Assembly (NCBI GenBank): GCA_025361165.1 | Contig: JANYAU010000088.1 | Location: forward strand, 1 to 40,832 | From: Betaproteobacteria bacterium | GTDB taxonomy: Bacteria > Pseudomonadota > Gammaproteobacteria > Burkholderiales > Thiobacteraceae | Reading direction: 5' to 3' | DNA length: 40,832 nucleotides | Shown here: one piece after another, positions 7,403-13,947 of the stretch | How positions within the stretch are numbered: position 1 is the first letter of the stretch | Layout of the letters: each line of letters starts with the position of its first letter | Translations under genes and position numbers: made by a program | Notes under the pieces: generated by a model | The model's database searches: none | What the model was told of the DNA's origin: nothing | The model's input: the letters and a program-made list of their open reading frames with translations, nothing else

Positions 7403-8362
7403 ATGAAACTGGAAGACAAAAAACGCGTTCTGCGTGAAATGGTGCTTGCGCGCCGCTTCGAAGAACGTTGCTATCAAGCTTACATCGAACGCAAGATCGG
7501 CGGCTTTCTGCATTTGTATCCGGGCCAGGAAGCCTGCTGCTACGGCGTGATGGAAGCGGCGCGCCCCGGCCACGATTACGTGATTACCGGCTATCGCGAT
7601 CACGTCCACGCCATGAAATGCGGCGCCGATCCCAAGGCGGTGATGGCCGAACTCTACGGCAAAGAGACCGGCGTATCCAAAGGCCGTGGCGGTTCGATGC
7701 ATATCTTCGATGCAGCGCATCGCTTCATGGGCGGCTATGCCTTGGTGGGCGGACCCTTCCCGCTCGCGGCTGGCATTGCCAAGGCGATCCAGTTAAAAGG
7801 CGGGGACGAGATTTCGATTTGTTTCTTGGGCGACGCAGCCAATAACCAAGGCACTTTCCACGAAACGCTGAATATGGCGGCGCTGTATAAACTGCCGGTG
7901 CTGTTCGTGTGCGAAAATAATCAATACGGTATCGGCACCGCCATCGACCGCTCTACCGCAGTACTGGATCAATTCAAGCGCGTGTGCGGTTACGACATCC
8001 AAGCCAGCCAATGCGACGGCCAAGATTTCGACGTGGTGTACGAGCATGCGAAAAAAGCCGTGGCGCATGTGCGCAATGGGAACGGCCCGTACTTTTTGGA
8101 ACTGATGACCTACCGCTATCGCGGCCACTCGATGTCTGATTCGCGCGGCTATCGCACGCGCGAGGAAGAAGAGTTGTGGAAACAGCGTGACCCGGTTTTC
8201 ATTTTGCGCGATCGATTGATCGACGCCAAAGCGCTCACCCTTGACGAATTCAGCGCCATGGAAAAAGACGTCGACAATTACATTGAAAATGAAGTCATCA
8301 AGTTCGCGGAAGAATCGCCCGAACCGAATGTGGCGGAGCTTGAAAAATACGTGTTGGCTTAA
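7403..8362 (+). CDS. pdhA: Pyruvate dehydrogenase E1 component, alpha subunit
   Basis: This is the thiamine-diphosphate subunit of a heterotetrameric (alpha2beta2) pyruvate dehydrogenase, which decarboxylates pyruvate and passes the acetyl group to lipoyl-E2. The 319 residues contain LYPGQEACCYGVMEA, the GVSKGRGGSMH block, the ThDP/Mg motif GDAANNQGTFHE...CENNQYGIGT, and the loop YRYRGHSMSDS. The ThDP motif begins GDA rather than the usual GDG. Betaproteobacteria generally use the single-chain AceE E1, so a two-subunit E1 here is a noteworthy choice. The ribosome-binding site AAGGA lies 8 bases upstream. It heads the pdhA-pdhB-E2/E3 operon. Confidence 0.95.
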   Translation: MKLEDKKRVLREMVLARRFEERCYQAYIERKIGGFLHLYPGQEACCYGVMEAARPGHDYVITGYRDHVHAMKCGADPKAVMAELYGKETGVSKGRGGSMHIFDAAHRFMGGYALVGGPFPLAAGIAKAIQLKGGDEISICFLGDAANNQGTFHETLNMAALYKLPVLFVCENNQYGIGTAIDRSTAVLDQFKRVCGYDIQASQCDGQDFDVVYEHAKKAVAHVRNGNGPYFLELMTYRYRGHSMSDSRGYRTREEEELWKQRDPVFILRDRLIDAKALTLDEFSAMEKDVDNYIENEVIKFAEESPEPNVAELEKYVLA

Positions 8363-8370
8363 AAGCTTGA

Positions 8371-8546
8371 ACCACGGAGCACAGAGTACACGAGGAAAAC
8401 CAAGAGCAAAAAGCGATAACCGCAAAGGACGCAAAGGTACGCAAAGGAAAATCAAGAACGGGTTTACTTCGCGTACCTTCGCGTACCTTTGCGTCCTTCG
8501 CGGTGAAATGCTTCAGCTTTACTCCGTGTACTCTGTGCTCCGTGGT
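8371..8546. repeat. Long nested inverted repeat between pdhA and pdhB
   Basis: The outer arms at 8371-8392 and 8525-8546 are perfect 22-base inverted copies (ACCACGGAGCACAGAGTACA and its complement). The inner arms at 8419-8442 and 8481-8504 match at 23 of 24 bases and contain the direct unit CGCAAAGGACGCAAAGG. The element fills most of the 205-base gap inside the operon. Units built on ACGGAG and CGCAAAG resemble dispersed intergenic repeats seen in many bacterial genomes. A transcript would fold into a very long hairpin ahead of pdhB. Confidence 0.9.
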
Positions 8547-8567
8547 AAAGATTTAAAAGGATAAATT

Positions 8568-9551
8568 ATGGCTGAAATGATGTATTGGGAAGGGCTGCAG
8601 CGCGCGCACGACGAAGAAATGGCGCGCGATCCGCTGGTGATCTGCATGGGCGAGGATATTGGCGTGGCCGGCGGCACCTACAAAGCCACCAAGGGCTTGT
8701 ATGAAAAATACGGCCCACTGCGCGTGATGGATACACCGATTTCGGAAAATAGCTACACCGGCTTAGGCATCGGCGCTTCGTTCTTGGGCGTGCGCCCGAT
8801 TATCGAAATCATGTCGGTCAACTTTGCTTGGTTGGCTATGGACCAGATGTTCAATTCCGCCGCTAAGGTGCGCTATATGTCGGGCGGCCAACTCACCGCG
8901 CCGGTGGTGTTCCGTTCCCCCGGCGGCAGCGCGCATCAGTTGGGCGCGCAACACTCGGCGCGCATGGAAAAAGTGTTCATGGGCGTGGCGGGTTTGCGCG
9001 TGGTCACGCCCTCTAATCCCAAACAAGCTTACGGCCTGCTCAAATCCGCCGTGCGCTCGGACGACCCGGTGTTCATCTACGAACACGAACTCATGTACAA
9101 CATGAAGGGCGAAGTACCGGATCAAGAGTATTTTCACCCGCTTGAAGGCTCCGAGATCGCCCGTGCCGGCACTGACGTCACCCTGTTCGGCTACAACATC
9201 TCGGTACATTGGTGTCTGAAGGCTGCGGAAATTCTCGCCACGCAATACCACATCAGCGCCGAGGTGGTGGATATGTACTCGCTCGCCCCGCTCGATCGCG
9301 CGGGGATTAAAAAATCGGTCTCCAAAACGCACCGCGCCGTCATTGCGGAAGAAGATGAAGCGCCGTGCGGCGTCGGTTCCGAAGTGATGGCTATCATCAA
9401 CGAAGAATGCTTCTTCGATCTCGATGCCGCACCGGTGCGCGTGCATTCGGCGCTGGTGCCGCAACCCTACAACCACAAGCTGGAAATGGCCGCCATCCCC
9501 GATCACGAAGATGTGGTCAACGCAGTACTGAAGCTGTTTGGCAAAGCATAA
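8568..9551 (+). CDS. pdhB: Pyruvate dehydrogenase E1 component, beta subunit
   Basis: This 327-residue partner of PdhA completes the E1 active site. The conserved blocks are MGEDIGVAGGTYKATKGL, DTPISENSYTGLGIGAS, the FRSPGGSAHQLGAQHS loop, and the C-terminal transketolase domain with DMYSLAPLDRAGIKKSV and EEDEAPCGVGSEV. The family is normally 325-330 residues, so the gene is full length. AAAAGGA precedes the ATG. The E1 beta fold carries the glutamate that activates ThDP (ISEN, about residue 60) and the dimer contacts with E1 alpha. Confidence 0.95.
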   Translation: MAEMMYWEGLQRAHDEEMARDPLVICMGEDIGVAGGTYKATKGLYEKYGPLRVMDTPISENSYTGLGIGASFLGVRPIIEIMSVNFAWLAMDQMFNSAAKVRYMSGGQLTAPVVFRSPGGSAHQLGAQHSARMEKVFMGVAGLRVVTPSNPKQAYGLLKSAVRSDDPVFIYEHELMYNMKGEVPDQEYFHPLEGSEIARAGTDVTLFGYNISVHWCLKAAEILATQYHISAEVVDMYSLAPLDRAGIKKSVSKTHRAVIAEEDEAPCGVGSEVMAIINEECFFDLDAAPVRVHSALVPQPYNHKLEMAAIPDHEDVVNAVLKLFGKA

Positions 9552-9615: not shown

Positions 9616-12579
9616 ATGTCCTCACATTACGTCATCATCATGCCGCAACTCTCCGACACCATGACCGAAGGGGTCGTGGTGACGTGGGAAAAGCAGGCCG
9701 GCGACCGCATCGAACGCGGCGATATCGTGGCCACGATCGAGACCGACAAAGCTATCATGGATGTGGAAGTGTTCAAGGCCGGTTATCTGGCGGGGCCGCT
9801 GGCCGAAGTCGGCAGCACCGTGCCGGTCAGCGCCGCCCTTGGCTACATTACCGATACACCGGGCGATCTCGCCATTGCGCAAAATGAAGTCGTCACCCAA
9901 CAAGCACCGTCCGAGATGATTCCGCATCACGCGGGGGTCGCTGTGGTCATGCCGCAACTCTCCGACACCATGACCGAAGGCGTGGTGGTGACGTGGGAAA
10001 AAGAAATCGGCGGCGTGATCAAACGCGGCGACATCGTCGCCACGGTCGAAACCGACAAAGCCATCATGGATGTCGAAGTCTTTCACGAAGGTTTTCTGTC
10101 CGGCCCGATGGCCGATGTCGGCAGCGTGGTGGAAGTCGGCCACCCCATGGCCTTCATCGTCAACGAGGCGAGCAAAGTGGTGGACACGGCCGTCATCATC
10201 ACCGCCGAACACAAAGTGACGGAGGTGCATCACAAAACGGCGGCGGTGCAAAGCACGTCGGCCACACCCAAACCCGCGCCTGCCGTGGTAGCCGCATTGA
10301 GTTCTGCCAAACCCGTAGCCCGCATCGCGGGCCGCAAAGCCTCGCCCTATGCGCGCAAACTCGCCGGGCAATTGGGTGTCGATATGACCAGCGTCGCCGG
10401 CAGCGGGCCGGAAGGCGTGATCGTCGCCGCCGATGTGCAGCGCGCCCGCCCGAGCATGGCGGAAGTCGCGCACAGCTTGCCGCAAGTCGATGTGCCCGGC
10501 CACGGCCGCGCCATGAGCTCGATGGAAAAAGCCGTGTCGCACGCCATGGCGGCTTCCCTCACGCTGCCGACGTTCAACGCCACCATGAACATCGATACCG
10601 CCAAGCTCACGGCGAGCGCCAAAGCACGCAAAATATCGGTGACGGTGGCCATCGCCAAAGCCTGTTCGGTGGCGATGCAAAAATATCCACGCATGAACTG
10701 GTCTTATCAACCGGTAGACAAACTCATCGAGCGCCCCGAGCACAACTTCGGCGTCGCGGTAAAAAGCGACGATGGCGGCCTGGTCGTCCCCATCTTGCAC
10801 AACATTCAAGCCAAAGGCCTCGAAACTTTGCAGGAAGAATGGAACGGCCTGGTGCCGCGCGCCCGAGTGCGCAAGCTCACGCCGGCAGAATTCGCCAACC
10901 CCACGTTTACTATTTCCAACATGGGCATGTTCGGCATTACCCACTTCACCGCCATTCCCACGCCGGGCATCGCGGCGATTCTGGCGATTGCCGCTAACGG
11001 GCCGCAAGGCACGCCCTTCACTATCACCGCCGATCATCGCGTATTGAATGGCGCGGATGTCGCGTCGTATCTGGTTGATCTGAAGCACGCGATTGAAAAC
11101 CCTGAACCCTGGATAACCGGCACGGAGAGTGTACCTATGTCACCTATTCCAGAAGGCAACTGGGATGTGCAAGTACTGGTCATTGGCGGTGGCCCCGGCG
11201 GCGAAGATTGCGCACGGGATCTCACCGAGCACGGCGTGAAAGTCGCGATGATCAACAACGCCCCCTTGCCCGGCGGCGAATGTTTGTGGCGCGGCTGCAT
11301 TCCGTCCAAAGCCTGGCGTCACGCCGCGGATATCATGCGCGACCGCGCGCACGATGCAGCAAAAGGGGTCACCGGCACCGATAAACCAAAAATGATTTGG
11401 GAAACGCTGGAAGCACACCGCAAAAATATTCTGCAAACTCGTGGCGAGCTCGCGCTCAAGACCGACAAGGGCGTGAAAATCGACGTGCGCGAAGGCTTCG
11501 CTTCCTTCATCGATGCGCACACCGTGGAAATCAAACCGGCCCAGGGCGAGGCTTACCGCATGACTTTCGGTGCAGCGGTCATCGCCACCGGCGCCCCACC
11601 CTTTGTGCCGCCGATTCCCGGTGCAAAAGATGGCGTGGCCAGCGGCGGCGTGCTCACCTCCGATACGATTTGGGATTTGCCTAAACCACCGAAGAAACTC
11701 GGCATCATCGGCGGCGGCGTGATCGGTGTGGAGATGGCGCAAATCTGGCGCGACTTCGGCGCGGATATTCTGATGCTCGAAGCCAAAGACCGCATCTTGG
11801 CCGAGATCGAGGAAGAAATCGCCAAGCAATTAACGACCGTGCTCAGCGCAGAATTTCCCGTCGTCGCATCAGCGAAAATCAATGAAATTTCCGGCAAGCC
11901 CGGCAAGATGCTGATCAAGTACAGCGACGCCGAGGGCAAAGCACAAGAATATGCCTGCGACTATGTGCTCATGGCCACCGGCAAACGCCCCGACACCAGC
12001 CAGCTCAAGCTGGATAAAGCCGGTGTCGCACTCGACGGCGCGGCAATCAAAACCGACACCAGCGGCCGCACCAGCACGCCGCATATCTACGCCGTGGGCG
12101 ATGTGATCGGCGGCTACATGCTGGCGCACACCGCCGCTACCCAAGGCCGCGTCGCCGCCTCCAATCTGACCGGACACGCTCGCAACTACAATCAGGACAT
12201 CGATTGCGGCGTGACCTTCAGCCGCCCACAAGCCGGCTTCGTCGGCCTCTCCGTCGCGCAAGCCAAAGCCAAAGGCATCGATGCCGCCGAAGTGAAAATC
12301 CCGATGAGCATCGACGCCAAAGCCATGATCGCTTTAGAGACCGTCGGCATGATCAAACTCGTCGCCGATAAAGCCACGCAAAAAATCATCGGCGTGCATT
12401 TCTTGGCCGATCACACCGATACCCTCATCGGCACCGCGGTGATGATGGTGTCCGGCGGCATGACGCTCACACAAGTGGCCGAAGCCATTTTCCCGCATCC
12501 AACGCAGACCGAACTCTTCGGCGAGTTAGCGCGGCGTTTACAATCGCGACTGCGGCGCACGGCAAAAACAAAAACCTAA
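9616..12579 (+). CDS. Fused dihydrolipoamide acetyltransferase (E2) and dihydrolipoamide dehydrogenase (E3)
   Basis: A single 987-codon frame joins E2 and E3 of pyruvate dehydrogenase. Residues 1-80 and 108-185 are two lipoyl domains, each with ETDKAIMDVEV (lipoyl lysines K45 and K148). Residues 241-277 are the E3/E1-binding domain (SPYARKLAGQLGVD...GSGPEGVI). Residues 294-498 are the acyltransferase core, with the motif DHRVLNG (H474) where DHRxxDG is usual. From about 516 on comes a complete flavoprotein: FAD motif GGGPGG at 524, redox disulfide CLWRGC (C556/C561), NAD motif GGGVIG at 699, and HPTQTE at 961 (catalytic His-Glu pair). An in-frame ATG at codon 508 has its own GGAGAG seven bases upstream, so free E3 might also be made. 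The operon order E1a-E1b-E2E3 supports a PDH role. Confidence 0.95.
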   Translation: MSSHYVIIMPQLSDTMTEGVVVTWEKQAGDRIERGDIVATIETDKAIMDVEVFKAGYLAGPLAEVGSTVPVSAALGYITDTPGDLAIAQNEVVTQQAPSEMIPHHAGVAVVMPQLSDTMTEGVVVTWEKEIGGVIKRGDIVATVETDKAIMDVEVFHEGFLSGPMADVGSVVEVGHPMAFIVNEASKVVDTAVIITAEHKVTEVHHKTAAVQSTSATPKPAPAVVAALSSAKPVARIAGRKASPYARKLAGQLGVDMTSVAGSGPEGVIVAADVQRARPSMAEVAHSLPQVDVPGHGRAMSSMEKAVSHAMAASLTLPTFNATMNIDTAKLTASAKARKISVTVAIAKACSVAMQKYPRMNWSYQPVDKLIERPEHNFGVAVKSDDGGLVVPILHNIQAKGLETLQEEWNGLVPRARVRKLTPAEFANPTFTISNMGMFGITHFTAIPTPGIAAILAIAANGPQGTPFTITADHRVLNGADVASYLVDLKHAIENPEPWITGTESVPMSPIPEGNWDVQVLVIGGGPGGEDCARDLTEHGVKVAMINNAPLPGGECLWRGCIPSKAWRHAADIMRDRAHDAAKGVTGTDKPKMIWETLEAHRKNILQTRGELALKTDKGVKIDVREGFASFIDAHTVEIKPAQGEAYRMTFGAAVIATGAPPFVPPIPGAKDGVASGGVLTSDTIWDLPKPPKKLGIIGGGVIGVEMAQIWRDFGADILMLEAKDRILAEIEEEIAKQLTTVLSAEFPVVASAKINEISGKPGKMLIKYSDAEGKAQEYACDYVLMATGKRPDTSQLKLDKAGVALDGAAIKTDTSGRTSTPHIYAVGDVIGGYMLAHTAATQGRVAASNLTGHARNYNQDIDCGVTFSRPQAGFVGLSVAQAKAKGIDAAEVKIPMSIDAKAMIALETVGMIKLVADKATQKIIGVHFLADHTDTLIGTAVMMVSGGMTLTQVAEAIFPHPTQTELFGELARRLQSRLRRTAKTKT
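11124..11139 (+). promoter_or_regulatory. Internal ribosome-binding site and ATG at the E3 boundary
   Basis: GGAGAG at 11124-11129 is followed by 7 bases and an ATG at 11137-11139, in frame with the fusion (codon 508). Translation from it would give a 480-residue protein, the normal size of a free dihydrolipoamide dehydrogenase. Confidence 0.6.
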
Positions 12580-12590
12580 TCCAGCACGAA

Positions 12591-12623
12591 AAAACGGCGG
12601 AGATATATCCCCGCCGTTTTTTT
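12591..12623 (+). terminator. Intrinsic terminator of the PDH operon
   Basis: AAAACGGCGG and CCGCCGTTTT form a stem around a 10-base AT-rich loop, followed by a run of seven T. It lies 11 bases after the fusion gene stop. The A-run on the left makes it potentially bidirectional for amtB, which converges from the right. Confidence 0.85.
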
Positions 12624-12747: not shown

Positions 12748-13947
12748 CTAGGCTGACTCTCTCTCCGGCGTGGCCGATATTTTATGAATCGACAAATCCG
12801 CGCCGTTGAATTCCGCTTCTTGATCGAGGCGAATGCCGACCACCATTTTTATCCCACCGTAGACTACGAAGCCGCCCACCAGCGCGATACCGATGCCCAT
12901 CACCGTGCCGATCAATTGCGCGCTGAGGCTCACGCCACCTAAACCGCCCAGCGCTTTGGCGCCGAAGATGCCGGCGGCGATGCCGCCCCATGCGCCGCAC
13001 AATCCATGCAGCGGCCACACGCCGAGCACGTCGTCGATTTTCCATTTATTTTGGGTGAGCGTGAACATCCACACGAATAAGAAACCTGCCACGCCGCCCG
13101 TCACCAGCGCGCCCACCGGATGCATGATGTCGGAACCCGCGCACACCGCCACCAAACCCGCGAGCGGACCGTTGTGCACGAAACCGGGATCGTTCTTGCC
13201 GGCGATCAAGGCCGCGAGCGTACCGCCTACCATGGCCATCAAGGAATTCACCGCGACCAGGCCACTGATCTTGTCGATAGACTGCGCCGACATGACGTTG
13301 AAGCCGAACCAGCCCACCGTGAGCACCCAAGCGCCCAGCGCGAGAAAAGGAATACTCGATGGCGGATGTGCTGCCATCGCGCCATCTTTGCGATAACGGC
13401 CGTGGCGCGCACCGAGCAGCAAAACTGCCGCTAAGCCAACCCAGCCACCGACGGCATGCACCACCACCGAGCCGGCGAAATCGTGGAACTCCGCGCCGAA
13501 TTGGACATTAAGCCAAGCTTGCACACCGAAGTTCTTATTCCAGACGATGCCTTCGAAGAAGGGGTAGACCAAAGCGACCAGCATGAAGGTCGCCATGAGC
13601 TGCGGATAAAATTTTGCGCGCTCGGCGATGCCGCCGGAGACGATGGCGGGAATTGCCGCCGCAAAAGTGAGCAGGAAAAAGAATTTCACCAACTCATAGC
13701 CGTTCTTCTGCGCCAGTGTCTCCGCACCAGTCATGAAGTGCGTACCATAAGCGATGCCGTAGCCGATGAAAAAATACGCTAGCGTCGAAACGCAAAAATC
13801 CACCAGGATTTTCACCAACGCATTCACCTGATTTTTTTGACGTACTGTACCGAGTTCCAGGAATGCAAAACCCGAATGCATGGCCAGCACCATGATTGCC
13901 CCCAACAGCACAAACAGCGTATCGGTTCCGACTTTTAGCGTTTCCAT
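12748..13947 (-). CDS. amtB: Ammonium transporter
   Basis: This 399-residue Amt/Rh-family channel moves ammonium across the inner membrane. It has about 11 hydrophobic helices, the signature DFAGSVVVHAVGG (D160 and pore His168) and WPLHGLCGAWGG (pore His318), so the twin-histidine pore is intact. There is no extra N-terminal signal peptide beyond the first hydrophobic segment. The C-terminal tail (VVGIRLDQEAEFNGADLSIH) is the usual cytoplasmic region that meets GlnK. No glnK gene adjoins it in this window. Control by sigma54/NtrC is suggested by the AT-rich upstream region. GAGGTAGGA precedes the ATG. Confidence 0.96.
   Translation of the reverse strand: METLKVGTDTLFVLLGAIMVLAMHSGFAFLELGTVRQKNQVNALVKILVDFCVSTLAYFFIGYGIAYGTHFMTGAETLAQKNGYELVKFFFLLTFAAAIPAIVSGGIAERAKFYPQLMATFMLVALVYPFFEGIVWNKNFGVQAWLNVQFGAEFHDFAGSVVVHAVGGWVGLAAVLLLGARHGRYRKDGAMAAHPPSSIPFLALGAWVLTVGWFGFNVMSAQSIDKISGLVAVNSLMAMVGGTLAALIAGKNDPGFVHNGPLAGLVAVCAGSDIMHPVGALVTGGVAGFLFVWMFTLTQNKWKIDDVLGVWPLHGLCGAWGGIAAGIFGAKALGGLGGVSLSAQLIGTVMGIGIALVGGFVVYGGIKMVVGIRLDQEAEFNGADLSIHKISATPERESA

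Follow-up and report, generated by a model that had tools for sequence, protein, structure and literature searches.

Pyruvate dehydrogenase (PDH) complexes with an alpha2beta2 E1, such as those of Geobacillus stearothermophilus and mitochondria, are built from E1alpha and E1beta chains, an E2 that runs from lipoyl domains through a peripheral-subunit-binding domain (PSBD) to the catalytic core, and a flavoprotein E3. The functional unit is a trimer for E2 and a dimer for E3, and in complexes of this type the PSBD binds either E1 or E3, as is established for the G. stearothermophilus complex. In the literature, the PSBD is described as binding E1/E3 chains (PMC6270654), the cavity of the canonical 60-mer E2 is given a diameter of 12.8 nm, and domains gene-fused to E2p were modelled as an inner layer (PMC10082823). 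A precedent for fusing a trimeric to a dimeric component is the 800-kDa hexamer OdhA, in which a 17-residue linker joins E2 to E1 (PMC10415282).

Here, we analyzed a window of 40,832 nucleotides, the whole stretch of DNA under study (contig JANYAU010000088.1, from a betaproteobacterium that GTDB places in the Gammaproteobacteria, Burkholderiales), for which a fusion of PDH E2 and E3 in one gene had been predicted. Domain content, catalytic residues and independent genomes agree with this prediction.

One reading frame for E2 and E3

The frame at 9616-12579 is exactly as predicted, with an ATG start and 987 codons free of interruption. Its product has a calculated mass of 104.4 kDa. The gene follows pdhA and pdhB, with a gap of 64 bases between the E1beta and fusion genes. 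Domains were called at Pfam curated cut-offs and equivalogs at NCBIfam cut-offs, giving the following features:

7403..8362, + strand: pdhA, E1 alpha subunit, 319 aa (TIGR03182, 410.5 bits against a cut-off of 393.85; Pfam E1_dh)
8568..9551, + strand: pdhB, E1 beta subunit, 327 aa (NF006667, 353.3 bits against a cut-off of 321; Pfam Transket_pyr and Transketolase_C)
9616..12579, + strand: E2-E3 fusion gene, a single open frame of 987 codons plus stop, 987 aa
9634..9843, + strand: lipoyl domain 1, residues 7-76 (best copy of Pfam Biotin_lipoyl), with lipoyl lysine K45 in ETDKA
9931..10185, + strand: lipoyl domain 2, about residues 106-190 (second Biotin_lipoyl stretch in Pfam), with lipoyl lysine K148 in ETDKA
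10336..10440, + strand: PSBD, residues 241-275 (Pfam E3_binding, E 3.3e-13)
10510..11112, + strand: acetyltransferase core, residues 299-499, with active site His474/Asn478 (Pfam 2-oxoacid_dh; alignment, conservation and fold match)
11113..11172, + strand: E2-E3 linker, residues 500-518, ending IPEGNWD (from length and conservation across fusions)
11170..12555, + strand: E3 dihydrolipoyl dehydrogenase, residues 519-980 (Pfam Pyr_redox_2 at 519-844 and Pyr_redox_dim at 866-971)
12588..12620, + strand: inverted repeat with a T-run directly 3' of the fusion stop, read from the sequence as AAAACGGCGGAGATATATCCCCGCCGTTTTTTT

The hairpin at 12588-12620 is the probable operon terminator, and the next gene, on the opposite strand, is an ammonium-transporter-like frame (12748-13947, named by eye from sequence). 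The gap between pdhA and pdhB (8363-8567) is occupied by an inverted-repeat element (CGCAAAGGACGCAAAGG ... CCTTTGCGTCCTTCGCGG) whose family has about 50 matches genome-wide, both orientations counted.

The predicted two lipoyl domains, subunit-binding domain, acyltransferase core and E3 all score over the Pfam curated cut-offs, the 2-oxoacid_dh domain with 152.9 bits against 23. The E3 redox residues were correctly called complete, comprising the pair C556/C561 in GGECLWRGCIPSK and His961/Glu966 in HPHPTQTE. Both halves stay under the NCBIfam equivalog cut-offs (286 bits against 445 for the E2 part with TIGR01349, 346.7 bits against 408.8 for the E3 part with TIGR01350), so that the activity of each half is read from its residues. 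These were followed through an alignment of 67 fusions. Both lipoyl domains are present in 59 of them, one in seven, and one protein is truncated; K45 is invariant wherever lipoyl domain 1 occurs, and K148 is found in 66 of 67, with one gap. H474 and N478 of the DHRxx[DN]G motif are present in all 67, Asn478 replacing the commoner Asp, as it does in the E2p of A. vinelandii (Asn614). On the E3 side, C556 and C561 never vary, and 66 of 67 fusions keep His961 and Glu966.

Distribution and origin of the fusion

In the order sample, 15 of the 59 genomes besides that of the window carry an uninterrupted fusion frame (63-91% identity); in the class sample, the fusion occurs in 75 of 369 genomes, identity mostly being 50-63%. 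No fusion was found outside the class among the 398 genomes of the phylum sample, in which the matches were three genomes of the window's order, the window genome included. Carriers include the single-contig assemblies G078, G093, G139, G180, G183, G190 and G369. At the 25 loci on named contigs, the fusion occurs in Thiobacillus, Hydrogenophilaceae, Burkholderiales and Gammaproteobacteria records, with the frame intact in most, several running off the contig and one (L040) consisting of the E3 part only. At all 64 fusion loci that could be tested, the gene immediately upstream is E1beta, in the same orientation; E1alpha is upstream in 62.

A quick maximum-likelihood tree of 96 E3 sequences unites all 70 fusion E3s in one group with support 100, and both the lipoyl-E3s and the OGDH-linked E3s of the class fall elsewhere. 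A single free protein lies within the fusion group: L040:5953-7428, a stand-alone E3 beside unrelated genes, nested deep among Hydrogenophilaceae-like fusions. Given this nesting, the retained linker end (PAGDWDVQV), and the conventional E2 and lipoyl-E3 present in the same genome, it is most likely a former part of a fusion. The tree indicates one fusion event, after which E3 became a free protein again at least once. The converse case is a stand-alone short-core E2 in genome G267 (L092:1584-2894), which stops just after PGRWLI; a GGDEF-EAL gene and a small toxin-antitoxin-like frame stand between it and E1beta. No fusion-type E3 was found in G267, where it has apparently been lost.

Several irregular loci were noted in passing. 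In the single-contig genome G343, an E2 half and an E3 half (L088, L089) are separated by about 2.1 Mb, and each breaks off within a domain, reflecting a misassembly or a rearrangement. A 150-aa copy of the fusion E3 C-terminal end (L096, G001:C33:25767-26216; 89% identity) sits about 4 kb from the fusion gene of that relative. Two long frames (L084, L086) that looked like E1beta-E2-E3 triple fusions were rejected as such, the extension being open frame upstream of the start and E1beta a separate frame.

Relation to AceE and OGDH

The window genome, about 94% complete, contains a single 2-oxoacid_dh domain, making the fusion its sole 2-oxoacid dehydrogenase E2; at this completeness, neither an OGDH E1 nor AceE was found in it. 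Across the class sample (n=369), none of the 75 fusion genomes has AceE, compared with 247 of the 294 others (Fisher p about 4e-46; the genomes are related, so this value should not be read as a chance probability). As the exclusion holds across dozens of families with no single exception, the fusion complex is very likely a functional replacement of the homodimeric AceE-type PDH, and most likely the only PDH of the cell.

OGDH, in turn, is missing in 37/75 fusion genomes versus 53/294 others of the class sample (p about 1e-7), and in 13/16 versus 6/44 of the order sample. With OGDH missing from many of them, fusion genomes frequently have no need of a shared E3. OGDH loss was nevertheless rejected as the sole cause of the fusion: it is enriched, but the genomes are not independent, and about half of the fusion genomes keep OGDH, so that independence from a shared E3 does not by itself explain the fusion. 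Where looked at, in the fusion genomes G080 and G142, OGDH has its own E2 and E3 genes.

Glycine cleavage needs an E3, and the window genome holds gcvT, gcvH, gcvPA and gcvPB (named from sequence), which the E3 of the fusion might conceivably serve in trans. The nearest free E3 candidate there, 490 aa long and encoded in a dsr-like cluster, scores 398 bits against a cut-off of 408.8. This E3-like flavoprotein (GGNCLNQGCIPKK), at L121:2138-3610, lies among genes resembling dsrN/dsrR/dsrO/dsrP, and the dsr-like cluster suggests a sulfur oxidizer. Another E3-like flavoprotein, at L122:1324-2718, has a shifted redox motif, GGCGLNRGCVPKN, with five residues between the cysteines.

A shortened E2 core and a conserved joint

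Relative to conventional E2s of the same class, every fusion compared is 14 residues shorter between strand ILAIA and the DHR of the active site. The 2-oxoacid_dh Pfam scores of the fusions, 145-168 bits versus about 270-290 for most conventional PDH/OGDH E2s of the order, fit this loss. The core ends in PxxW[MLI], in which Trp499 is invariant, whereas conventional E2s have Leu. From here to E3 the distance is short: the equivalents of W499 and V520 are 16-28 residues apart in 66 of 67 fusions (16 in 36/67) and 43 apart in one. The linker end IPEGxWD is conserved, and mean pairwise identity across the joint is 0.57, versus 0.27 for the flexible lipoyl-PSBD linker (190-238), suggesting that this short, conserved stretch is a structural joint.

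The full-length AlphaFold2 model has a mean pLDDT of 60.6, too weak for placing E2 relative to E3. The E2 core model (mean pLDDT 71) matches the E2 cores of 24- and 60-mers with VIA-align Z about 24, and its alignment extends through model residue 218, that is residue 504 of the protein.

Proposed function

From the domain order, the conserved catalytic residues and operon, the single fusion lineage and the mutual exclusion with AceE, we consider it highly probable that the gene product is a bifunctional E2p-E3 subunit, working with the E1alpha and E1beta of its operon in the sole PDH complex of the organism. In the cycle that we envisage, the alpha2beta2 E1 would dock on the PSBD and acetylate the lipoyl-lysines, the swinging lipoyl arms would deliver the acetyl group to His474/Asn478 in the active site of E2, and the dihydrolipoyl groups would then reach an E3 attached at the C-terminal end of that core or of an adjacent one. 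Covalent attachment would fix the E2:E3 ratio at 1:1 and leave the PSBD free for E1. The original prediction expected the E3-binding domain to become partly redundant. This is unlikely, as the PSBD is kept in 67/67 aligned fusions with five residues (P244, R247, A250, G264 and D273) invariant, and the E1 of the operon is of the alpha/beta type. Since an attached E3 needs no docking, the PSBD is probably the docking site for E1 alone.

Three readings would undercut this proposal, and the data weigh against each to a different degree. That an assembly or frame error merged two separate genes might be suspected from the draft state of the window genome (169 contigs), but the same stop-free frame recurs in dozens of independent genomes, some of them single-contig; between residues 498 and 516, where a stop was thought possibly to have been missed, there is none, and the stretch is conserved in relatives. 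We therefore give such an error practically no credence. A complex acting on another substrate, such as acetoin or branched-chain 2-oxoacids, would agree with E2 and E3 parts that score under the PDH equivalog cut-offs, yet it is very improbable considering that E1alpha and E1beta pass PDH models (TIGR03182 and NF006667), that the exclusion with AceE is perfect over 369 genomes, and that the window genome has no 2-oxoacid dehydrogenase E2 other than the fusion. Unlikely, too, is a fusion that is translated whole and then cleaved into ordinary E2 and E3, with the usual PSBD-based assembly: the retained PSBD and the existence of each half as a gene, in the free E3 of L040 and the free short-core E2 of L092, are in line with cleavage, but the linker from W499 to IPEGxWD is short and better conserved than the flexible 190-238 linker.

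Assembly of the particle

A covalent E3 on each E2 of a 24- or 60-mer core had been assumed for this protein. The covalent E3 holds, but a normal cage is not to be presumed, given that the core is modified and that 60 E3s exceed the cavity. By our calculation, 60 E3 domains of 50 kDa and 61 nm3 each need about 3,640 nm3, versus about 1,100 nm3 available in the 60-mer, so that a closed cage with E3 inside fails if the C-terminus points inwards here too. Because E2 is a trimer and E3 a dimer, we propose that E3 dimers would join E2 trimers, either in a hexamer of about 630 kDa, with two E2 trimers and three E3 dimers, or in a more extended open lattice. Similar to OdhA and unlike a plain cage with PSBD-held E3, this arrangement is as apt to prove right as wrong. 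The open trimer-dimer form itself is a guess by analogy with the actinobacterial enzyme. More broadly, and tentatively, the fusions may represent a widespread class of PDH in which E3 dimers rather than E2-E2 contacts hold the E2 trimers, forming a self-assembling particle with no textbook cage and a PSBD that serves E1 alone. A conventional 24- or 60-mer cage could instead have been kept, with E3 outside or near the two-fold contacts and the fusion merely fixing stoichiometry. Such a cage is conceivable, if doubtful: the E2 C-terminal helix and hydrophobic end are retained, the trimer-trimer contact segment of cage-type E2s is present in the sequence (PxxW[MLI]), and the core model can be aligned with cage-forming E2s as far as residue 504, but the E3 domains are too bulky for the interior and all fusions compared have lost the stretch before DHR.

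Comparison with known systems

We found no paper on a PDH E2-E3 fusion in the open-access literature, the scope of our search (5.39 million papers); the subunit is apparently undescribed, although such proteins are in public genomes, presumably annotated as E3 or E2. With both halves under curated equivalog cut-offs, these genomes may be scored as being without E2p. The textbook plan of PDH, regarded as nearly universal, has E1 and E3 held loosely on an E2 cage; it is seemingly changed in about a fifth of the sampled class genomes, and the fusion lineage offers a clean natural test of whether a PDH requires E1 and E3 to compete for one domain, the E3 stoichiometry to vary and the cage to be closed.

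Compared with the PDHs of G. stearothermophilus and mitochondria, the locus shares the E1 type, the E2 domain order and the flavoprotein E3; E2 and E3 are separate there, whereas here E3 is covalent and the core is 14 residues shorter before the active site. Lipoyl-E3s (such as PDB 5u25, 602 aa, and E3s of 604-619 aa in the class) likewise have E3 covalently joined to a part of E2, but this is the lipoyl domain alone and not the whole E2, and the E3 tree sets the two types apart. The actinobacterial E2o-E1o fusion OdhA/KGD, like the present protein, combines a trimeric E2 core, a short linker and a dimeric catalytic domain (PMC10415282). No OdhA-like Phe-containing insertion was seen in the fusion, though an invariant Trp stands at its E2 C-terminus. 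The partner domain differs as well, being E1 in OdhA, which uses lipoyl domains in trans, and E3 here.
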